Shown here: one piece after another, positions 12,149 through 22,866 of the stretch | How positions within the stretch are numbered: position 1 is the first letter of the stretch | Layout: the number at the start of each line of letters is the position of its first letter | Source: Deltaproteobacteria bacterium | GTDB taxonomy: Bacteria; Myxococcota_A; UBA796; UBA9615 | Direction of reading: 5' to 3' | Length of the DNA stretch: 36,396 nt | Assembly: GCA_023954745.1 (NCBI GenBank) | Contig: JAGSHC010000034.1 | Coordinates: 1 to 36,396, forward strand | Program-made: the position numbers and the translations under genes | The notes under the pieces: model-generated | What the model saw: the letters and a program-made list of their open reading frames with translations, nothing else | Told to the model about the DNA's origin: nothing | The model's database searches: none

Positions 12149-13099
12149 ATGCGCGTTCTCGTCACCGGTGCCGCCGGATTCATTGCCTCCCACATCGCCG
12201 ACGTCCTCGTGGGGCGCGGAGACGAGGTGGTCGTGCTCGACGACCTCAGCAACGGCGTGGTCACCAACATCCCCGAAGGGGCGGCATTCATCGAAGGCGA
12301 CGTGCGCGACCCGGCGGCCGTGGACCGGGCCTTCACCGCGCTGGCCGGGCCCATCGAGGGCGTCTGCCACCTCGCGGGGCAGGCATCGACCTTCAAGTCC
12401 TTCGACGAGCCCGCCTGGGACATGGACGTCAACGGGGTCGGAACCGCCCGCATGCTCGAAGGGGCGCGACGCCACGGCGCCAAGACCTTCCTCTACGCGT
12501 CGTCCATGACGGCGTACGGCCATCCCGAGCGCCTGCCCGTCACCGAGGACCAGCGCTGCGCGCCGGTCAGCTACTACGGGATCACGAAGTGGGCCGCCGA
12601 GCAGGCCGTGCTCATCAGCAGCAAGCCCGAAGCCATGAACCTCAAGGCCGCCTGCTTCCGCATGTTCAACGTGTACGGACCCCGCCAGTCATTGACCAAC
12701 CCCTACCAGGGTGTTCTCGGTATCTTTCTGGGCAACGTGCTGAGGGACGAGCCCATTCGCATCTTCGGAGACGGCGAGCAGAGCCGAGACTTCGTGTACG
12801 TGGGAGATGTGGCTGCGGCCTGGGTCGCTGCCCTGGACGGACCTCCGGACGAGGCCGCCGCCCTGAACATCGGCACGGCCACCCAGACCAGCATCAACGA
12901 GCTGTGGCGCGCCGCGGTCACCGCGTGTGGCCGCGATCCAGAGACCTACCCCGTCAGCTACGAGGAGACGCGCCCGGGCGACCAGCGGCACATGCGCGCG
13001 AACATCGACAAGGCCTGCGCCACCATCGGCTGGGAGCCGCAGGTGAGCTTCGCCGAGGGGATGAAGCGCACAGCGGACTGGGCACGAGGGGCCGTGTGA
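12149..13099 (+). CDS. NAD-dependent nucleotide-sugar epimerase/dehydratase (extended SDR)
   Basis: 316 residues from ATG 12149, preceded by a GGAG. The Rossmann motif reads TGAAGFIASH at residues 6-15. The first two glycines of GxxGxxG are kept and the third is Ala, a tolerated but less common change. The catalytic Ser is in SSMTAYG (about 124), and Tyr/Lys are in YYGITKWAAE (about 149-153). FRMFNVYGPRQ and RDFVYVGDVAAA are typical of UDP-glucose 4-epimerase-like enzymes. It probably makes a nucleotide sugar for the upstream glycosyltransferase. Epimerase and dehydratase cannot be separated by eye. Its stop overlaps the next start (GTGA). Confidence 0.9.
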   Translation: MRVLVTGAAGFIASHIADVLVGRGDEVVVLDDLSNGVVTNIPEGAAFIEGDVRDPAAVDRAFTALAGPIEGVCHLAGQASTFKSFDEPAWDMDVNGVGTARMLEGARRHGAKTFLYASSMTAYGHPERLPVTEDQRCAPVSYYGITKWAAEQAVLISSKPEAMNLKAACFRMFNVYGPRQSLTNPYQGVLGIFLGNVLRDEPIRIFGDGEQSRDFVYVGDVAAAWVAALDGPPDEAAALNIGTATQTSINELWRAAVTACGRDPETYPVSYEETRPGDQRHMRANIDKACATIGWEPQVSFAEGMKRTADWARGAV

Positions 13100-14169
13100 G
13101 GACGTTCGTTCTCCTGGGGCTGCTGGCGGCGAGCGCGAGTGCGGGGTGCGATCCCGCACCGGCGCTGGACTGGGACCACCCCACAGCCGTGGGCTCGGCT
13201 CCCGACCCTGTCGATGCAGGCGTGGACGAGATCGTGTTCGCTGCCATCGGCGACTTCGGCGAGGAGGGCGAGCCTCAGACCCGCGTGGCGGGGGCGGTGG
13301 CAGACGCCTGCGTGGAGGCCGGCGGGTGCGACTTCGCCCTGACCCTGGGCGACAACCTCTATGACTTCGGCCTCAATGGCAGCGAGGAGGCCGAGCAGCG
13401 GCTTCGCGCCCTGGTGGATTCGTATCCACAGATGCCGAAGTTCATGGTGCTGGGCAACCACGACTGGCACGCCATCCGCACCGAGCTGTCCCGCGCGCAG
13501 CGGGAGCTGGAGTGGATCGCCGAGCAGGACGACGTCTTCGGCGCCTTCCACTACTACGACTTCCGCGCCGGGCCCGCGCAGTTCCACGGGATGGACTCGA
13601 ACTGGATCGTGCGCCACCTCGACTCCGATGAGGCGACGGAGTTGGACGCGTGGGGCCAGACCATCGGCGCCTCCGACGCCCCGTGGACCTTCACCTTCGG
13701 CCACCACCCGATCTTGTCCAACGGGCGCCACGGCAACGCTGGCGACTACCGGGACACCGGGCTCGACCTGTGGCCCGGCACCAACTACCGCGCGTTCCTC
13801 GACGAGCACGTCATCGGCACGGCCGACCTCCACCTGGCGGGCCACGACCACAACCTCAACTTCTTCCCCGGGACCGGCGGCCCCAACGGCGACGCCACCG
13901 CGACCCTCGTGTCTGGCTCGGCGGCGAAGTGTCGGGGCCTCGGCCCCGTCAGCGCGAACCCCGGAACGGGCGACGCGGGGACTGGGGTCACCGCCACCTA
14001 CGAGTTCTACGGCTTCGGCTTCGCCCTGGTGCGGGTGACCGACGACGAGCTGGTCGTGACCATGCACGCGGAGGGAATGGATCCCTGGACCACACGCCGC
14101 TCGCTGGACTCCGTCGCCTGGACCATCGACGGCGACCCCTTCATCGACACCAGCTCCCACTGCGAATAG
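13096..14169 (+). CDS. Calcineurin-like metallophosphoesterase lipoprotein
   Basis: 357 residues from GTG 13096, which overlaps the epimerase stop. That start gives a clean lipoprotein signal (LLGLLAASASAGC, lipid-modified Cys18). The dimetal motifs run in order: GDFG (52-55), GDN (85-87), GNHD (120-123), FGHHPI, and GHDHN further on. This matches tartrate-resistant/purple acid phosphatase-type phosphoesterases, acting in the envelope on phosphomonoesters or phosphoproteins. Coupling to the sugar genes is by operon only; the substrate is unknown. It lies just upstream of the kinase operon, with 92 bp to the CTG at 14262 or 158 bp to ATG 14328. Confidence 0.9.
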   Translation: MRTFVLLGLLAASASAGCDPAPALDWDHPTAVGSAPDPVDAGVDEIVFAAIGDFGEEGEPQTRVAGAVADACVEAGGCDFALTLGDNLYDFGLNGSEEAEQRLRALVDSYPQMPKFMVLGNHDWHAIRTELSRAQRELEWIAEQDDVFGAFHYYDFRAGPAQFHGMDSNWIVRHLDSDEATELDAWGQTIGASDAPWTFTFGHHPILSNGRHGNAGDYRDTGLDLWPGTNYRAFLDEHVIGTADLHLAGHDHNLNFFPGTGGPNGDATATLVSGSAAKCRGLGPVSANPGTGDAGTGVTATYEFYGFGFALVRVTDDELVVTMHAEGMDPWTTRRSLDSVAWTIDGDPFIDTSSHCE

Positions 14170-14254: not shown

Positions 14255-14327
14255 TAGCGGTCTGAGTCAGGGACCCCCGAGTCGACGCATCATCACGAAC
14301 CACGGCCCGCTGCCCGAAGCCATCCAG

Positions 14328-15860
14328 ATGGCGACGGCGCATGCGCCCGACGAGCTGCAGGACGTCGCTGCGGCCCAGCTCGGCGTCGTCGCCATCCAGT
14401 TCGCCGTGGTGCTCGTGGCCGGGTGGGTCGCCATCAAGGCCACAGTGGGAGGCGCAGACTTCTTCGCCGGTGACGTGGGCGCCCTCGTCGCGCGGGGAGC
14501 CCTGGGCAACCTGGGGGATCTCATCACCCTCATCACGGTTGGGCTCTGCGTGGGGTTGTTCCTCCGGACGCGTCGGGAGGTGTCGGGCTTTCCCGTGCTC
14601 ACCGGCGCGGCGGTCCTTCACGTGGGAGCGGCTCTGGGCGTCGCCTGCACCGAGCTGTGGGGACCCTGGCCGCCCGACCTGCTCCCGCGAGGGGTCACGT
14701 ACGCGAGCGTGTGGATCGCCATCTTTCCCCTGGTGATGCCCACGACCTTCCGGCGCTCCGTCATCACCTCGTTCCTGGCGGCGGCGATGATCCCGGTGGG
14801 ACTTGCGCTCTCGGTGCTCTTGGGGCCCAACGAATGGCCTACGACGGGGGTTGCGGCGGCGCTGGTGGTGCCGACGTTCATCATCGCCGCCCTCGCCATC
14901 TTCCCGGGGAGCACCCTGCATCGACTGCGGGAGGAGGCCGCTCTCGCTCGGTCCATCGGCTCCTACACCCTGACGGAGAAGCTCGGCCAGGGGGGCATGG
15001 GCGAGGTGTGGCGCGCCTCCCACCAACTGCTCGCGCGCCCGGCCGCCGTGAAGCTGGTGCGGCAGGAGAACCTGGGGACCGAGGAGGAGGCGGAGGCGGC
15101 GCTGACTCGCTTCGAGCGGGAGGCCCAGGCGACCGCCACCCTCGTCTCACCCCACACGATCCAGCTCTTCGACTTCGGCCGGACGCGGGAGGGCGACTTC
15201 TACTACGTGATGGAGCTCCTCGACGGGGTCGACCTGCAGGCGCTGGTGACGGAGCACGGGCCCCTGCCTCCCGAACGGGTGGTCTGGCTCCTCGAACAGG
15301 CCTGCCACAGCCTGGAGGAAGCCCACCGGCGCGGCCTGGTCCATCGGGACATCAAGCCCGCGAACCTGTTCGCCTGTCGCTACGGCCTCGATGCGGACTT
15401 CGTCAAGGTGCTCGACTTCGGACTCGTGCGTCGCGACCAGGGCGCCCAGGACGACGTCCAACTCACGGCCGTGGGCACGGTGACGGGCACTGCGGCCTAC
15501 ATGGCCCCGGAGCGGGTCGATGGACTCGCCGGGGGAGCCCCAGTCGACATCTACGCCCTCGGATGCGTGGCCTACTGGCTCCTCACGGGCGGCCTCGTGT
15601 TCGAAGCCGACTCGGCGATGAAGCAGCTGGTGATGCACGCCCGAGACACCCCCGACCCGCCGTCTCGGCGCTCGGAGTTCGAGGTGCCCGACGACCTCGA
15701 CGCCCTGATCCTGCGTTGTCTGGCCAAGGACCCCCAGGAGAGGCCAGGGACTGCTGGGGTGCTTCGGGATGAGTTGCTCGCCCTCGCGCTGCCGAGGCCC
15801 TGGACCGGAGAGCGCGCAACCCGCTGGTGGAACCGGGTCTTCCCGCCGTCCAATACGTGA
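14328..15860 (+). CDS. Membrane-anchored Hanks-type Ser/Thr protein kinase (C-terminal kinase domain)
   Basis: 510 residues from ATG 14328. About six hydrophobic segments occupy residues 16-195. A full Hanks kinase domain follows from about 213: Gly loop KLGQGGMGEVW (218-228), Lys242, alpha-C Glu265 in RFEREAQ, HRDIKPAN (339-346), DFG (363-365) and GTAAYMAPE. All catalytic residues are present, so it should be active, with the kinase on the cytoplasmic side. Most bacterial relatives have the kinase first and the anchor after; here the order is reversed. ATG 14328 has no SD. CTG 14262 lies behind GAGGAGG and would add 22 residues, so it may be the true start. It is the first gene of the five-gene operon; its stop overlaps the next start (GTGA). 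Confidence 0.9.
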   Translation: MATAHAPDELQDVAAAQLGVVAIQFAVVLVAGWVAIKATVGGADFFAGDVGALVARGALGNLGDLITLITVGLCVGLFLRTRREVSGFPVLTGAAVLHVGAALGVACTELWGPWPPDLLPRGVTYASVWIAIFPLVMPTTFRRSVITSFLAAAMIPVGLALSVLLGPNEWPTTGVAAALVVPTFIIAALAIFPGSTLHRLREEAALARSIGSYTLTEKLGQGGMGEVWRASHQLLARPAAVKLVRQENLGTEEEAEAALTRFEREAQATATLVSPHTIQLFDFGRTREGDFYYVMELLDGVDLQALVTEHGPLPPERVVWLLEQACHSLEEAHRRGLVHRDIKPANLFACRYGLDADFVKVLDFGLVRRDQGAQDDVQLTAVGTVTGTAAYMAPERVDGLAGGAPVDIYALGCVAYWLLTGGLVFEADSAMKQLVMHARDTPDPPSRRSEFEVPDDLDALILRCLAKDPQERPGTAGVLRDELLALALPRPWTGERATRWWNRVFPPSNT

Positions 15861-18106
15861 GCGACTCGGACGCAGCGCTGCGGCGCACCGCCAACGTCGC
15901 GGCGCTGGGCTCGGCCGCTCTCATCGCCCAGCAGGTCGGCTCCAAGGCGGCGCGAGACGCACTCTTCCTCTCCAGCTTCGACGTCACCTCGCTCCCCCTG
16001 ATGCTGGGGGCCGCCGCGGCGATCTCCGTGGTGGGCTCGCTCCTCATCGCCCGGGCCATGAGCCGGGTGGGCCCGCAGCGCCTCGTGCCCGCAGCGTTCT
16101 TCACCAGCGCCGTGCTCCTGCTCCTCGAGTGGCTCGCGGCCTCCGCGCTCCCCCGCGTCGTCGCCGTCGTGTTCTTCATCCACGTCGCCGGGTTCGGTCT
16201 CATCCTGATCAGCGGGTTCTGGTCGCTGCTGTCGGAGCGCTTCGACCCGCGCAGCGCCAAGGCCATGCTCGGGCGCATCGCCATGGCGGGGACCGTCGGC
16301 GGTCTCGTGGGGGGCCTCCTCGCCGAACGCATCGCGGCCACGTTGGGTCTGCTTCCGATGCTGCCCGTGCTGGCCGGCCTGACGGCCGCAGCTGGGGTCA
16401 CCACCCTACGCATCCGGGGGCCTGCCACCTCGAGGGCGGTCTCGATGGAGGAGTCCTCGGGGGTCGCAGTGCTCCGCCGGGTTCCGTACCTGCGCCACCT
16501 CGCGATGCTCGTCCTTCTGGGCACCATCGCCGCCACGTTCCTCGACTACGTCTTCAAGGCGAGGGCGGCAGCGAGCCTCGCCGACGGAGACGAGCTCCTC
16601 CGCTTCTTCGCCGTCTTCTACACGGCGGCGGCCTTCCTCACGATGGTGGTGCAAGGCGGCTTCGGACGGCGGGTCCTCCAGACCTGGGGCATCGTGCCCG
16701 CCGTCCTGGCCCTCCCCGCAGGAGTGGTGGGGGGCTCCCTCGTCGCCCTCGCCGCCCCAGGTCTCGCCGCCGCCGCCATCGCCCGGGGTACTGAGTCGGT
16801 CCTCCGCTCGTCCCTGTATCGCGGGGGGTACGAGGCCCTCTTCGCCCCGCTGCGCACCGCCGAGAAGCGCGCGACGAAGTCCATCATCGACGTGGGCTTC
16901 GACCGCCTGGGGGACGGCCTCGGGGCCGCGGCTGTGCTGGGGCTGCTCGCCCTGGGGACCTACGGCGAGCAGGCGATGCTCGCTGCCGCGGCGCTCCTCG
17001 GGCTCGCGAGTGTCTTCGTGGCCCTCAAGCTGCGCGCGGGGTACGTGGCGGCCCTGGAGCGCAGCTTGCGAGAGATGTCGCTGGAGGTGGAGGCCCTGCA
17101 GGAGATGGACGAGGCGACACAGCACATCCTCACCGTCACCCTGAAGTCGTCGTACCTGTCCGACTTCGGTCAGTACATCGACAAGCTCCGCACCACGGCC
17201 CAGCGGCTGCCTCCCGTGGCGAAGCCCCCCTCTACCGAGGCTTCATCGGCTCCGATGAGCGCAGAGGCCCGGCTGCTGGAAGACCTGCGCTCGGGGGACG
17301 TCGACCGAGTCCTGCAGAGCTTGACGCAGGGCCGCCTCGACGACTCCCTGATCCCAGCCGCGGTGGGACTCCTGGGCTGGGATGACGTAGCACCGGCAGT
17401 CACTGCCGCCCTCATGGACGTGTCCGAGGAGGCCGTCCCGGCGGCCCGCGACGCCCTGCTGGACCCCGACGAGGTCTTCGCGGTGCGACGAAGGGTGGCG
17501 GCAATCCTGGGGGCGGCGGCGAACCCCGAGTCCGTGAACGCGCTCCTCACCGGACTGAGCGACCCGCGCTTTGCGGTGCGCTTTCGGTGCGGCCGCGCCC
17601 TCCGCTCGGCCGTGGAGGCTCACCCCGAGCTCGCGCCAGACTCCGGGCTGGTGCACGAGGTGGTCATCGCCGAGGTCGCCCGCCAGCGGAAGGTGTGGAA
17701 GGGCCAGCGACTCCTCGATGCCGCCGGGGAGTCTCCCTTCGTCAGCGACGTGCTGAGCGACCGCGCCGACCGGGGCCTCGAGCACGTCGTCACGCTGCTC
17801 TCCCTCGTCCTGGAGACGGAGCCGCTGGTCATCGCCTACCACGCGCTGCACACCGACGACCGCATGCTCAAGGGGACGGCCCTCGAGTACCTCGAGCACG
17901 TGCTCCCCGAGTCGGTGCGCACCGTGCTGTGGCCCTTTCTGGAAGCCGATGACCGTCGCGACTCTGGGGATGGGCGCACGGATCAGGAGGTCCTGGACTC
18001 CCTGCTCAACTCCCACCGGTCCATCGTCATGCATCTGGAGAGCGCAAAGGTTCGCGGGGCCGCTGCTACGGTGCTGACACCCACTGTGGAGGAGGGGAAT
18101 GACTGA
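15857..18106 (+). CDS. ATP/ADP translocase (Tlc/Npt)-family transporter with C-terminal HEAT-like domain
   Basis: 749 residues from GTG 15857, which overlaps the kinase stop by 4 bp; GTG 15827 would add ten residues. Residues 1-400 hold about 11-12 hydrophobic segments with the SKAARDALFLSSFD and LPLMLGAAAAI pattern typical of the family. These are nucleotide exchangers best known from Rickettsia, Chlamydia and plastids, with homologues in free-living bacteria. A helical linker at about 400-470 is followed by alpha-helical repeats at about 480-690 (DPDEVFAVRRRVAAILGAAA, LSDPRFAVRFRCGRAL) that look like HEAT repeats and may bind a protein partner. Substrate and direction are not shown by the sequence. 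It is followed immediately by a second family member with an 8-bp overlap. Confidence 0.82.
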   Translation: MSDSDAALRRTANVAALGSAALIAQQVGSKAARDALFLSSFDVTSLPLMLGAAAAISVVGSLLIARAMSRVGPQRLVPAAFFTSAVLLLLEWLAASALPRVVAVVFFIHVAGFGLILISGFWSLLSERFDPRSAKAMLGRIAMAGTVGGLVGGLLAERIAATLGLLPMLPVLAGLTAAAGVTTLRIRGPATSRAVSMEESSGVAVLRRVPYLRHLAMLVLLGTIAATFLDYVFKARAAASLADGDELLRFFAVFYTAAAFLTMVVQGGFGRRVLQTWGIVPAVLALPAGVVGGSLVALAAPGLAAAAIARGTESVLRSSLYRGGYEALFAPLRTAEKRATKSIIDVGFDRLGDGLGAAAVLGLLALGTYGEQAMLAAAALLGLASVFVALKLRAGYVAALERSLREMSLEVEALQEMDEATQHILTVTLKSSYLSDFGQYIDKLRTTAQRLPPVAKPPSTEASSAPMSAEARLLEDLRSGDVDRVLQSLTQGRLDDSLIPAAVGLLGWDDVAPAVTAALMDVSEEAVPAARDALLDPDEVFAVRRRVAAILGAAANPESVNALLTGLSDPRFAVRFRCGRALRSAVEAHPELAPDSGLVHEVVIAEVARQRKVWKGQRLLDAAGESPFVSDVLSDRADRGLEHVVTLLSLVLETEPLVIAYHALHTDDRMLKGTALEYLEHVLPESVRTVLWPFLEADDRRDSGDGRTDQEVLDSLLNSHRSIVMHLESAKVRGAAATVLTPTVEEGND
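18067..18097 (+). promoter_or_regulatory. Possible internal promoter and strong SD of the second translocase gene
   Basis: TGCTACGGT (hexamer TACGGT 18067-18072) lies within the end of the upstream gene. GGAGGAGGGG (18088-18097) precedes ATG 18099. The SD is convincing. The internal promoter rests only on the GCTAC pattern seen elsewhere here. Confidence 0.4.
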
Positions 18107-19457
18107 GACTGCGCGGAAGGGGCCGCTGGCGCGCCTCTTGGCCTTGTTCAGCGAGGTGCGACCGGGGGAGGGGGTGAACCTCCTCCTCATGGCCCTCAAT
18201 CTGTTCCTCGCCCTCGTGGGCTACTACGTCATCAAGACAGTGCGGGAGCCGCTGATCCTCGAGAGCGGGGGCGCGGAGCTGAAGTCCTACGCCTCGGCGC
18301 TGCAGGCATTCGTGCTCATGGGGCTGGTCCCCTTCTACTCGTGGTTCAGCGAGCGCGTGGACCGCAGCAAGCTCATCCGCGGCGTCGTCATCTTCTTCGT
18401 GGCGTGCATCGAGGTCTTCTACTTCGCGGCGAAGCTCGACGTCCCCTTCGTGGGGCTCGCCTTCTTCGTGTGGGTGGGCATCTTCAGCCTCGCGATCATC
18501 GCGCAGTTCTGGTCCTACGCGAACGACGTGTACGACGAGGAGTCGGGGAAGCGCCTGTTCCCCGTCATCGCCATCGGCGCCGCCGCGGGCTCGATGGTGG
18601 GGAGCCGCGTCGCCGGGTGGCTCTTCGACCTCGGGATCTCGGCCCACAACATGATGCAGGTGACAGCAGGCTTGCTCGTGGCGCACCTGGCGATCTACCT
18701 CGTGCTGGAGCGGCGGTTGGTGGCCGGCATCGGGGTGCCAGAGCCGGACACCGAGCGCGGCGCCCTCAGCGGGGGGAACGGCTTCACCCTGGTGTTCAAG
18801 AGTCGCTACCTGCTGCTCATCGGCGGCGTGTTGGTGCTCGCGAACCTCGTGAACACCACCGGCGAGTACATCCTCAGCAAGATGGTGGTGAGCAAGGCCG
18901 AGGCCCTCGCCGTGGCGGACCCGACCCTCGAGGTGGGCGCGTGGATCGGCGCGTTCTACGGGGACTACTTCTTCGTGGTGAACGTGGTGACCCTCGTGCT
19001 CCAGGCCTTCGTGGTGTCCCGCATCGTGAAGTTCCTGGGCCTGCGCGGCGTCGTGCTCGCGCTCCCCATCGTGGCCATGGGGACGTACGCAGCGGCGGCG
19101 GCGGGAGTGGGCTTCGCGGCGATGCGCTGGGCAAAGACGGCGGAGAACTCCACCGACTACTCGGTCATGAACACCGCGAAGGCCATGCTCTGGCTACCCA
19201 CGACCCGCGAGGAGAAATACAAGGCGAAGCAAGCCATCGACACGTTCTTCGTGCGCTTCGGCGACGTGATGGCGGCGGGCCTGGTGTTCGCCGGAACCAC
19301 GTGGCTGGGCTTCGGGTTGCGCGGCTTCGCGGCGACGAACCTGGTGCTCATCCTGGTGTGGATCGCCCTGGCGATGGTCTTGCTCAAGGAGTACCGCCGC
19401 ATCAGCGCCGAGCGAGAGAAGGCATCGACGAGTCCCGAGGAAGGGAGCCCCGAATGA
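18099..19457 (+). CDS. ATP/ADP translocase (Tlc/Npt)-family transporter
   Basis: 452 residues from ATG 18099, overlapping the previous gene by 8 bp, with a strong SD. About 11-12 membrane segments span the whole chain. YYVIKTVREPLIL near residue 42 matches the conserved K-x-x-R-(D/E) stretch of the family, followed by FVLMGLVPFYSWFSERVDR and FWSYANDVYDEESGKRLFP. It lacks the HEAT-like tail of its neighbour, so the two are diverged tandem paralogues that might work as a pair. Nucleotide exchange across the inner membrane is the family role; here the substrate is unproven. Its stop overlaps the ATG of the barrel gene (ATGA). Confidence 0.85.
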   Translation: MTETARKGPLARLLALFSEVRPGEGVNLLLMALNLFLALVGYYVIKTVREPLILESGGAELKSYASALQAFVLMGLVPFYSWFSERVDRSKLIRGVVIFFVACIEVFYFAAKLDVPFVGLAFFVWVGIFSLAIIAQFWSYANDVYDEESGKRLFPVIAIGAAAGSMVGSRVAGWLFDLGISAHNMMQVTAGLLVAHLAIYLVLERRLVAGIGVPEPDTERGALSGGNGFTLVFKSRYLLLIGGVLVLANLVNTTGEYILSKMVVSKAEALAVADPTLEVGAWIGAFYGDYFFVVNVVTLVLQAFVVSRIVKFLGLRGVVLALPIVAMGTYAAAAAGVGFAAMRWAKTAENSTDYSVMNTAKAMLWLPTTREEKYKAKQAIDTFFVRFGDVMAAGLVFAGTTWLGFGLRGFAATNLVLILVWIALAMVLLKEYRRISAEREKASTSPEEGSPE

Positions 19458-21106
19458 GGTGGATGGCATGGGTGGCCCTGCTGCTGCTGCTCGGCGGAGC
19501 CGAGGTGGCGAGCGCGCAGGAGGAGGGGGAGGCCGAAGCGGAGGAGGAAGCCTCCGACACCGCGGAGGAGCCGGAGCCGGAGCCGGAGGGTGAGGCGGAG
19601 CCGGAGCCGGAGACCGCGGAAGAGCCGGAGGCGGAGACCGAGACCGCGGAAGAGCCGGAGACCGAGCTCGAGGCGGAGACTGAGCCCGCCGAAGAGCCGG
19701 AGACCGCCGAGGAGGCAGAGCCCGCGCCAGAGCCGGAGCCGGAGCCCGCGCCAGAGCCAGAGCCCGAACCCGCCGCCGAGGCCGCCACGGACGAGCCCGC
19801 CCCGAAGGGCAAGAAGTCGAAGCAGCCCCGGCGGGAGCTCCCCAGCTACGACGGTCGGTCCAAGCGCCCCCTGACCCCTGCCGAGTCCGCCGCGTGGATC
19901 CCCCGCGTCTTGCTCGCGCCGCTCTACGTCGTCAGCGAGTACCTGATCCGCATCCCCGCCGGGGCCCTCGCCACGGGCCTCGAGAAGAACCGCATCCCCG
20001 ACAAGGTCCGCCACGTCCTGTCCTTCGGCAGCCCAGGCAAGGCCATGTGGTACCCCACGGCCCTCATCGACTTTGGCTTCCGGCCCTCCATCGGCCTCTC
20101 CCTCTTCGCCAACGACGCCCCGGGCAAGAACGCCAAGTTCCGCTTCAGCTTCGCCTGGGGCGGCAACAAGTGGTGGCTGGTCTCCCTGCGCGAGCGCATC
20201 TACTTCGGAGAGGGAGCGGAGTTCAACACGCCCTTCGCCGGCAGCCACCTCTCCTTCCACTTTCGATACCTGTCCCGCCCCGACTACCAGTTCTACGGCT
20301 ACGGCCCGACCTCTGGCGGCACCCGCACCCGATTCACGGAGAAGGAGCTCGGCGGCGGAGTCGGTCTGGAGCTGGTGTTCGGCAAGCTCGATGGACTGAC
20401 CCTCGACGTGGGCGTCACCAACCACCGCTTCGAAGGGGGCCACCCCAACCGCAAGCGCGGCGACCTCTCCATCGAGGAGCGCTTCAACACCGCCAACATC
20501 CCCGGCTGGGACGGGTACACCCTCTTCACGGGAGACCTCGGACTCGTGCTCGACAGCCGCAAGGCGCTGCCCGCCGGGGGCTCCGGGGTGCGTCTCGTCC
20601 TCGGCACCAGCGTGCACGGCGACCTCGAGGACACCAGCAACTGGTTCCTCAAGATTCGCGGCGAGGTGGGAGCCGCCCTCGACCTCAACGGGGGCAACCG
20701 CGTCCTCGCGACGCGTCTTCACGTCCAGCTGATCGAACCCCTGACGGGACAGGAGGTCCCGATGGCGGAGCAGATCGCTCTCGGGGGCAACCAGCTCCTC
20801 CGCGGAATCCAGCAAGGTCGCTACCGCGGCATGAGCTCCTTCGTCACCACCGTGCAGTACAGCTACCCCATCTGGGTGTTCCTCGACGGCTTCGTCTTCG
20901 CGGAGACGGGCAACGTCTTTGGGACCAACTTCGCAGGCTTCCATCCCGAAGACTGGACCCTCAACTTCGGAATCGGCTTCCGGAGCAACGCAGACCGGGA
21001 CGCGCGCTTCAACGTGTTGATCGCCGCCGGCACGACACGCTTCGGTGACGAGAACTTCAAGGTGGACAGCTTCCGGCTGGTCATCGGCAACGATCGGGGG
21101 CTCTAG
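19454..21106 (+). CDS. BamA/Omp85-type outer-membrane beta-barrel protein with Glu/Pro-rich linker
   Basis: 550 residues from ATG 19454 (ATGA overlap). A signal peptide ends in VASAQ at about residue 21. Residues 22-115 are almost wholly Glu, Pro, Ala and Thr. After a basic patch (KGKKSKQPRR) comes a region of alternating beta strands to the end. LLRGIQQGRYRG near residue 455 matches the conserved L-R-G-(F/I)-xx-G-R-x-R-G element of the Omp85/surface-antigen barrel. No POTRA repeats are visible, so it is not a classical BamA; it resembles POTRA-less patatin/surface-antigen-like barrels. It may form a pore or anchor for its neighbours, while the acidic linker would span part of the periplasm. 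It is followed 2 nt later by the kinase-like lipoprotein. Confidence 0.8.
   Translation: MRWMAWVALLLLLGGAEVASAQEEGEAEAEEEASDTAEEPEPEPEGEAEPEPETAEEPEAETETAEEPETELEAETEPAEEPETAEEAEPAPEPEPEPAPEPEPEPAAEAATDEPAPKGKKSKQPRRELPSYDGRSKRPLTPAESAAWIPRVLLAPLYVVSEYLIRIPAGALATGLEKNRIPDKVRHVLSFGSPGKAMWYPTALIDFGFRPSIGLSLFANDAPGKNAKFRFSFAWGGNKWWLVSLRERIYFGEGAEFNTPFAGSHLSFHFRYLSRPDYQFYGYGPTSGGTRTRFTEKELGGGVGLELVFGKLDGLTLDVGVTNHRFEGGHPNRKRGDLSIEERFNTANIPGWDGYTLFTGDLGLVLDSRKALPAGGSGVRLVLGTSVHGDLEDTSNWFLKIRGEVGAALDLNGGNRVLATRLHVQLIEPLTGQEVPMAEQIALGGNQLLRGIQQGRYRGMSSFVTTVQYSYPIWVFLDGFVFAETGNVFGTNFAGFHPEDWTLNFGIGFRSNADRDARFNVLIAAGTTRFGDENFKVDSFRLVIGNDRGL
19566..19795 (+). repeat. Low-complexity GAGCCG-type coding repeat
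   Basis: Runs of GAGCCGGAGCCGGAG and GCGGAGACCGAG variants encode the Glu/Pro/Thr/Ala linker of the barrel protein. Such simple repeats can change length by slippage in 6- or 3-bp steps without frameshift. Confidence 0.7.
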
Positions 21107-21108
21107 TC

Positions 21109-22866
21109 ATGAAGCACTGCCTCCTCCCCCTCCTCGCCCTCACCGGCCTCCTCAGCGGCTGCGCCCACACCGTGCGCATGTTCCCCCTCGCTCCTCCCAT
21201 GACTGAGGACACGGACCGCCAGCACGTCACGACCACCCCGAAGGACTACTTCAGCCCCCTGCTCTGGGATGGCGCCGACCAGATCGCCTTCCGCCCCATC
21301 AGCCGGTTCCTCGCGGTCGAGACTCCTGGCCGCTCCCTGAACGTGAACTCGCTCGATGAGGTCCCCAACTCCTCGTGGTTCGAGAACCGCATCGGCCTCG
21401 GCACCTTCACCCCCGAGATGGCGAAGCAAGGCGCCTGCGACGAGTCGCCCCTGGACCCGAACAAGGCGCCTTGGACCGTGGTCGCCGCCAAGCCCAACGG
21501 CGCCAACCCCGGGTTCATCATCAAGGACTCCGAGGGACGCGGGTACCTGCTCAAGATGGACGGCCGCACCGAGGGCGATCGCGCAACCACCGCCGACGTC
21601 TTCGGCTCCCGCGTCTACCACGCAGCCGGGTTCCACGCGCCGTGCAACAAGGTCGTGTTCTTCGACCCGTCGGTGCTCGCCGTGGACCCCGAGGCGGAGA
21701 CCGAGGACCACCTCGGACGGGACCGGCCCATGACCCAGGAAGACGTCGAGACGGTGCTCGGCAAGGCCATCCAGCTCGAGGATGGGCGCCTCCGCGCATC
21801 GGCGAGCCGCTTCCTCAGCGGGCGCCCCATCGGACCTTGGACCTACCAGGGCAAGCGCCGAGACGACCCCAACGACGTCATCCGGCACGAAGACCGTCGC
21901 GAGCTCCGAGGCGCCCGCATCCTCGCGGCGTGGCTGAACCACTTCGACGCCCGCGAGCAGAACACGCTCGACATGTGGGTCACCGACCCCGACGGCACGA
22001 GCTACATCAAGCACCACTACATCGACTTCGGGGACTGCCTCGGGAGCCGATGGGCCCAGGACGGCCTCAGCCGCCGGTTCGGACACAGCTACTACCTCGA
22101 CGTGGCCGACGTGCTCCTCGACTTCGTGTCTCTGGGCGTGGTGGTCAGGCCTTGGCAGAAGGTCGGCATCAGCGAGTACACGCCCCAGTGGGGCTACTAC
22201 GACGCCGAGCACTTCAAGCCGCCGAACTGGAAGGCCGGCTACCCGAACATCTCCTTCAACCGGATGCTCGACGACGACGGCGCCTGGATGGCGCGAATCC
22301 TCGCCCACTTCACGGACGAGCACATCGCCGCGATGCTGTCCGAGGCCCACATGGGCCGGGAGCGGGACCGCGAGCAGATCACCCGCACCCTCATCACCCG
22401 CCGCGACAAGCTGCTCGCCTGGTACCTCCAGGTGCGCAGCCCCCTGGCGGACTTCGAGGTGGTGGAGGGAGACGACGGGCCCGAGGTCTGCTTCACGGAC
22501 CTCGCCGCGAAGACCGGCGCCCTGGACCCCCGCCGCATCCGGTACGAGAGCCGCATGTACGTCGGGGACTGGGAGACGCCCGCCTGGGTCCGGCACGAGA
22601 ACGAGGCCGTGTCTCCCCCCGCCGATGGAGCGTCCTGCGTGGCCCTGGTCGAGGGAGGGGTGAGGGCGTCAGCGAGCGGCGCCGGCGCGTCGAACGACCC
22701 CTCGCGCTACCAGATCCTCGACCTGCTGGTGTACCCGGAGACCGGCTCTGAGCCCATCGGGCCCGCGCGCCTGCACTTCTACGACACCCCCGAGGGCTTC
22801 GTCCTGGCAGGGGTGGAGCGGCCCGCTGACGACCGACCTCCTGCGAAGCGGGAGAAGGGCCCCTAG
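21109..22866 (+). CDS. Lipoprotein with PI3/4-kinase/HipA-like kinase signature
   Basis: 585 residues from ATG 21109, 2 nt after the barrel gene. A lipoprotein signal (LLALTGLLSGC, Cys18) places it in the envelope. I know no named family, but kinase-fold landmarks appear in order. There is a Gly-containing stretch and strand ending in GYLLK (Lys149). A helix follows (DVFGSRVYHAAGFHAP, 163-178). The catalytic-loop candidate is NHFDAREQNTL (Asp280-x4-Asn285), and the metal-binding strand is YIDFGDCLG (Asp306 in IDFG). The D-x4-N then IDFG(D) layout and 26-residue spacing match PI3/4-kinases and HipA rather than Hanks kinases. The remaining residues, about 320-585, are unassigned. If active it would phosphorylate a protein or lipid outside the cytoplasm and need nucleotide there; the two translocase-family genes in the same operon could bear on this. 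The kinase call is inference from motifs only. Confidence 0.6.
   Translation: MKHCLLPLLALTGLLSGCAHTVRMFPLAPPMTEDTDRQHVTTTPKDYFSPLLWDGADQIAFRPISRFLAVETPGRSLNVNSLDEVPNSSWFENRIGLGTFTPEMAKQGACDESPLDPNKAPWTVVAAKPNGANPGFIIKDSEGRGYLLKMDGRTEGDRATTADVFGSRVYHAAGFHAPCNKVVFFDPSVLAVDPEAETEDHLGRDRPMTQEDVETVLGKAIQLEDGRLRASASRFLSGRPIGPWTYQGKRRDDPNDVIRHEDRRELRGARILAAWLNHFDAREQNTLDMWVTDPDGTSYIKHHYIDFGDCLGSRWAQDGLSRRFGHSYYLDVADVLLDFVSLGVVVRPWQKVGISEYTPQWGYYDAEHFKPPNWKAGYPNISFNRMLDDDGAWMARILAHFTDEHIAAMLSEAHMGRERDREQITRTLITRRDKLLAWYLQVRSPLADFEVVEGDDGPEVCFTDLAAKTGALDPRRIRYESRMYVGDWETPAWVRHENEAVSPPADGASCVALVEGGVRASASGAGASNDPSRYQILDLLVYPETGSEPIGPARLHFYDTPEGFVLAGVERPADDRPPAKREKGP

Follow-up and report, generated by a model that had tools for sequence, protein, structure and literature searches.

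The window analysed here is a 36,396-nucleotide stretch of DNA from a Deltaproteobacteria bacterium (assembly GCA_023954745.1, contig JAGSHC010000034.1; genome size 7.1 Mb), and it carries a run of five genes encoding a Hanks-type kinase, two carriers of the NTT (ATP/ADP-carrier) superfamily that we call Tlc1 and Tlc2, an outer-membrane barrel and a lipoprotein. We found that this set belongs to a cassette that extends across the Myxococcota. Its core is the barrel together with the lipoprotein, for which a kinase fold is confidently predicted; NTT carriers often accompany this pair, the Hanks kinase can be absent and a phosphoesterase encoded upstream is not conserved. The lipoprotein represents a new protein-kinase-like family. 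The gene set suggests, without proving it, that free-living bacteria ship ATP from the cytoplasm to phosphorylate targets in the envelope.

Conservation of the barrel–lipoprotein cassette

The five open reading frames occupy 14262-22866 of the window, all on the + strand:

14262..15860, +, membrane-anchored Hanks-type Ser/Thr kinase, five predicted transmembrane segments followed by the kinase domain (PF00069); start CTG 14262 or ATG 14328
15857..18106, +, Tlc1, NTT domain with C-terminal HEAT repeats (profile against solved NTTs)
18099..19457, +, Tlc2, single-domain NTT-superfamily carrier (PF03219)
19454..21106, +, Omp85-superfamily 16-stranded outer-membrane barrel without POTRA domains, core member (PF01103, AlphaFold, Foldseek)
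21109..22866, +, lipoprotein, new protein-kinase-like family, core member (alignment, conservation, AlphaFold, Foldseek)

The kinase and Tlc1 genes overlap by 4 bp (15857-15860), Tlc1 and Tlc2 by 8 bp (18099-18106) and Tlc2 and the barrel by 4 bp (19454-19457), whereas barrel and lipoprotein are 2 nt apart (21107-21108). Every junction that an earlier, sequence-only reading of this DNA had given is thus confirmed, and the geometry argues for co-translation. The family calls of that reading for the kinase, the two translocases and the barrel were likewise borne out, by Pkinase, NTT, PF03219 and Omp85 matches. No structured RNA was found in the region.

To follow the cassette beyond the window, we searched for relatives of the lipoprotein. 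The family was matched in 44 of 379 genomes of the same phylum, 37 of them strongly. An alignment-based scan of contigs recovered 197 relatives, and a scan with the single lipoprotein sequence gave no matches. The best 80 of the 197 relatives were all from Myxococcota, Deltaproteobacteria or unclassified organisms, and included two strains of Sorangium cellulosum, Labilithrix and Sandaracinus. In a neighbourhood survey of 98 distinct lipoprotein loci, the barrel gene was the immediate upstream neighbour, in the same orientation, at 63 of 91 loci, and 30 of 56 had an NTT gene no more than 6 kb away. The ascertainment bias for NTTs and barrels was removed by a census of 16 whole genomes. It held 31 barrel genes, of which 27 lay no more than 500 bp from a lipoprotein gene, against 0.04 expected by chance, and 51 NTT genes, of which 19 had a lipoprotein gene within 6 kb, against 0.17 expected (about 100-fold above chance). 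The homologues are therefore co-located far beyond chance, so that one of the conditions named as refuting the sequence-only reading, a lack of co-location in related genomes, did not hold.

Presence across genomes followed the same pattern. A barrel homologue was found in all 16 genomes with the lipoprotein and, at 1e-20, in none of 16 genomes without it. A Tlc2-type NTT was present in 32 of the 37 genomes where the lipoprotein matched strongly and in 35 of the remaining 342 (odds ratio 56; the P value of ~1e-22 is too small, because related genomes are not independent), and almost every genome with the lipoprotein had one close Tlc2 relative. Gene order varied between loci, from barrel–lipoprotein–Tlc2 (L037, L038) to kinase–Tlc1–barrel–lipoprotein (L100), kinase–lipoprotein–barrel–Tlc1 (L054) and kinase–Tlc2–barrel–lipoprotein (L034); the order is reshuffled and the membership kept, which argues for functional linkage. 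None of the six other genomes of the window's order contained the lipoprotein, and this patchy distribution might be taken to mean that unrelated genes overlap here by accident. Such an accident has next to no probability: co-location is conserved in dozens of distantly related Myxococcota, and the census already refutes it.

The lipoprotein and its kinase-like fold

Searches of Pfam, NCBIfam and PDB sequences gave no match to the lipoprotein. An AlphaFold model of it, built from 34 sequences, reached a pLDDT of 89.6 and a pTM of 0.91. When this model was searched with Foldseek, the top 15 matches were all members of the Fam20 family, including Golgi casein kinase (best E 4.7e-5, probability 1.00), and the matches at E <= 0.001 were Fam20-family kinases exclusively; amicoumacin kinase (hAmiN), Rio2, PINK1 and HipT came after them. 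The protein has 585 residues, with a lipobox cysteine at position 18, the kinase fold at about 50-440 and a C-terminal beta domain at about 446-570 that showed weak likeness to beta-sandwich domains in Foldseek.

We counted conservation in a 99-sequence alignment, each residue over the sequences covering that position. The catalytic residues were invariant (K149 in 98/98, D280, N285 and D306 in 99/99 each), and the lipoprotein is for this reason probably catalytically active rather than a pseudokinase. The lipobox cysteine was retained in 96 of 97 members, with no Asp at +2, and the protein is most likely lipid-anchored outside the cytoplasm, in the outer membrane. Cysteines 110, 179, 461 and 510 are near-invariant and compatible with disulfides; the lipoprotein is probably exported and disulfide-bonded. 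The sequence-only reading had seen PI3/4-kinase/HipA-like residues in it and had made much depend on a kinase fold. The fold held up, on a confident prediction and the invariant residues, and the structurally nearest family was Fam20, not PI3/4-kinases or HipA. HipA and PI3/4-kinase-like enzymes do share with it two features general to the kinase-like fold, the D-x4-N catalytic loop and the metal-binding D, but no family match rose above chance (HipA_C and HipA_2 profiles against 34 members gave a single HipA_2 match, E 0.23), and they are cytoplasmic toxins or lipid kinases, whereas the lipoprotein is predicted to be secreted.

Some genomes encode several lipoproteins: two lipoprotein–barrel pairs or tandem lipoproteins occur at L047/L109, L125 and L144, and one genome (G153) has six paralogues, the highest number. 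These multiple paralogues suggest diversified substrates. We propose that the lipoprotein kinase would phosphorylate an envelope or surface target. The target may instead not be a protein but an outer-membrane glycan, a lipid or an extracellular metabolite, so that the cassette would modify secreted small molecules or the cell surface. A glycan is the substrate of Fam20B (Nat Commun 2018, PMC5865150), small molecules are often the targets of kinase-like folds with unusual inserts (hAmiN is among the Foldseek matches) and up to six paralogues per genome would fit diverse substrates; no recurrent sugar- or lipid-modifying neighbour appeared in the survey, however, and we regard this alternative as rather improbable.

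Barrel, carriers and a possible supply of ATP

The barrel matched Omp85 (PF01103) with 39.5 bits (cut-off 24), and its AlphaFold model has 16 strands, mostly at pLDDT 85-97. Its best Foldseek matches were BamA and TamA (E 1.7e-11 for BamA), and it shares with these and other Omp85 proteins the 16-stranded barrel, an L6-type RGF/RGI motif and the C-terminal position of the Omp85 match. In contrast to BamA and TamA, it is dedicated to one lipoprotein family and its modelled N terminus lacks POTRA domains; residues 1-140 comprise a signal peptide and a disordered Glu/Pro-rich linker, and helices follow at 142-178 and 181-189. The sequence-only reading was thus right about the family and the missing POTRA domains. 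The barrel is a core member, not an accessory one, and no other partner accompanies the lipoprotein as constantly.

Tlc2 matched the TLC family (PF03219) with 47 bits (cut-off 21), and Tlc1 on its own scored 20.2 bits, just under that cut-off. Profiles of both matched the solved chlamydial-type and plastid ATP/ADP carriers 9j3n and 9j3j, at 6.8e-25 and 1e-17 for Tlc2 and at 3e-21 and 3.8e-20 for Tlc1. Positions 520-614 of the Tlc1 profile also matched HEAT-repeat structures at 4.4e-51 (Pfam HEAT_2 gave E 1.7e-4, below the Pfam cut-off), which adds C-terminal HEAT repeats to the earlier description. Tlc1 is thus a fusion of the NTT-HEAT type, whereas Tlc2 consists of the NTT domain alone; both types were described by Major et al. 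(2017, PMC5381601), who found NTT-HEAT proteins widespread in free-living bacteria without assigning them a function. That study reports partners or fusions with a cyclic-nucleotide-binding domain (cNBD) and no link to an outer-membrane kinase-fold lipoprotein and barrel, and Tlc2 does not keep the canonical charged residues.

We consider it slightly short of an even chance that these proteins form an envelope phosphorylation system, in which the kinase-fold lipoprotein works with its barrel partner and the NTT carriers supply ATP. Enzyme and transport activities are predictions from sequence and structure models throughout. The inner-membrane carriers would swap cytoplasmic ATP for spent ADP or AMP and so provision the envelope, as their family and gene linkage suggest. 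The constant pairing of barrel and lipoprotein suggests a complex, in which the barrel might export, display or gate the kinase, or present its substrate.

Several observations weigh against this system. In roughly half of the loci an NTT is missing from the surrounding 6 kb, though most such genomes have one elsewhere. The Foldseek TM-scores of the lipoprotein are low (0.2-0.37), a soft placement within the kinase superfamily, and for this reason we claim a kinase-like fold nearest Fam20 and not Fam20 membership. The Fam20C profile (PF06702) matched none of 34 lipoprotein members at E <= 5, and a profile–profile comparison of the lipoprotein with Myxococcota PF06702 proteins gave P = 0.081. 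Finally, transport is where the model is weakest: K155, E245, E385 and K527 are the charged residues that the plastid carrier NTT1 of Arabidopsis needs (PMC3306366, PMC4256464), and the Tlc2 profile has A, G, N and D in their places. K62 and E256 sit four residues from these positions, and some microsporidian NTTs are likewise altered at three of the four charged positions with suitable residues nearby (PMC4256464); because of this precedent, the loss weakens the case for nucleotide transport by Tlc2 and still leaves it plausible, with substrate and direction inferred. The earlier claim that the translocases deliver NTP to the periplasm therefore keeps its ground in the superfamily of both proteins and loses some in the four unconserved charged residues of Tlc2.

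Two alternatives draw on the same data. The barrel–lipoprotein pair alone may be the functional unit, with the barrel a dedicated exporter, insertase or display partner, the NTTs serving another envelope process and the kinase using extracellular ATP or a different donor. The pair is near-obligate and the NTTs are present in only about half of the loci, the barrel resembles the protein-handling BamA and TamA, and the critical NTT residues are not conserved, yet the roughly 100-fold linkage of the NTTs and the strong co-occurrence of the Tlc2 subtype speak against a pair without carriers, and we judge it unlikely while giving it real weight. Alternatively, Tlc1 and Tlc2 could be NTT-fold carriers with a changed substrate (another phosphorylated metabolite or a lipid), in a cassette for outer-membrane homeostasis whose lipoprotein is a sensor or pseudokinase. 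This would account for an invariant Asp at the K527 position and for the weak matches to MFS and lysophospholipid-transporter-like proteins in the family profile searches, and negevensis NTT4 (cited in PMC5381601) also speaks for it. However, the NTT profiles match ATP/ADP carriers specifically and all kinase catalytic residues are invariant, which makes this a distinctly improbable reading. The Asp itself (D389 of Tlc2, 18099-19457, + strand, and related loci) was invariant in 14/14 aligned Tlc2 sequences; as Lys527 of the plastid carrier matters for ATP binding (PMC3306366), it suggests a distinct transport chemistry in the Tlc2 subfamily.

Related systems and other neighbours

The periplasm is thought to be without ATP, and ATP-dependent enzymology outside the Gram-negative cytoplasm is a question; the NTT family is known from energy theft by parasites and from feeding plastids. 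If the envelope phosphorylation system is real, it brings to light a family of outer-membrane kinases and a role for NTTs in ATP export, and free-living NTTs would gain an energising role, the opposite of energy parasitism. The cassette makes both extracytoplasmic ATP use and the role of NTTs in free-living bacteria testable, as it offers a kinase, probable carriers, a barrel, invariant residues and many genomes.

Fam20 secretory kinases (Golgi casein kinase Fam20C, Fam20B) are the closest parallel: they gave the best structural matches, and they place an atypical kinase-like fold outside the cytoplasm in a compartment that imports nucleotide. The lipoprotein differs in having no significant sequence similarity to them, in its predicted lipid anchor, its bacterial origin and its extra C-terminal beta domain; their carrier is SLC35B1 and not an NTT, and the barrel has no Fam20 counterpart. 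It is possible, although we would sooner doubt than assert it, that the cassette is a bacterial counterpart of eukaryotic secretory-pathway kinases, in which NTTs export ATP to the envelope and Fam20-like lipoproteins anchored in the outer membrane, each paired with an Omp85-type barrel of its own, phosphorylate targets there or at the surface. To our knowledge, FAM20 is usually called metazoan-specific. In a survey of the Legionella kinome, the FAM20 cluster counts as metazoan or eukaryotic (PMC9758233), and the known bacterial relatives of Fam20C are the CotH spore-coat kinases (PMC12189002). CotH too is a bacterial atypical kinase outside normal cytoplasmic signalling, but it has no DFG-type metal-binding motif (PMC12189002), while in the lipoprotein D306 is invariant; the lipoprotein has no CotH Pfam match, and CotH resides in the spore coat, not the outer membrane. 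We found no description of the gene set in the open-licence literature on Fam20-like bacterial kinases, envelope kinases and free-living NTT carriers, which does not prove that none exists and agrees with the sequence-only reading, whose author knew of no such system.

Assignment of the lipoprotein to Fam20C by sequence was rejected for want of a profile-level match, though true PF06702 proteins occur in Myxococcota. They belong to another family, putatively exported, whose PF06702 matches reach E 2.5e-18 (L157 8246-9532, +; L163 9346-10419, -; L161 12141-13289, -). The last of these, which has a lipobox-like start, comes from a genome without the lipoprotein family (G033) and lies about 5 kb from a Tlc2-type NTT (L161 5642-7087, +); this may be a case in which an NTT and a Fam20-like kinase were paired independently.

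The Hanks kinase matched PF00069 with 149 bits, and its translation contains HRDIKPANL and DFGL, so that the HRD and DFG motifs are present; a transmembrane scan placed its five predicted segments ahead of the kinase domain. Its start is ambiguous, with a strong GGAGG 7 nt upstream of CTG 14262 and no ribosome-binding site at ATG 14328. As a kinase lay within 3 kb on the same strand in just 6 of 56 cassette loci, it is an optional add-on; the adjoining kinase was the best genome match to the window kinase in G048 and the third best in G181. Of the earlier idea of a cytoplasmic kinase as regulator, constant membership falls away. What stays is that in the window genome the membrane kinase at the head of the operon, its catalytic domain predicted to be cytoplasmic, probably regulates the cassette.

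Upstream of the operon lies one further gene:

13096-14169, exported calcineurin-like phosphoesterase

It had been proposed to reverse the kinase reaction. We rejected it as a cassette member, because only one 32-bit match occurred near a lipoprotein (L069/L148, duplicates of the same locus). Also rejected were a defence-system reading, since PADLOC models match the generic kinase domain only, and carriage of the lipoprotein on plasmids or phages, for which no match was found. In an unbiased survey of neighbours, the largest cluster (19 loci) resembled low-complexity noise from high-GC frames. The sole obvious extra recurrent neighbour was a cNBD gene (7 loci), found near the cassette beside NTT-HEAT genes in L046, L051, L053, L065, L114 and L143; NTT-HEAT operons elsewhere include cNBD genes as well (PMC5381601).

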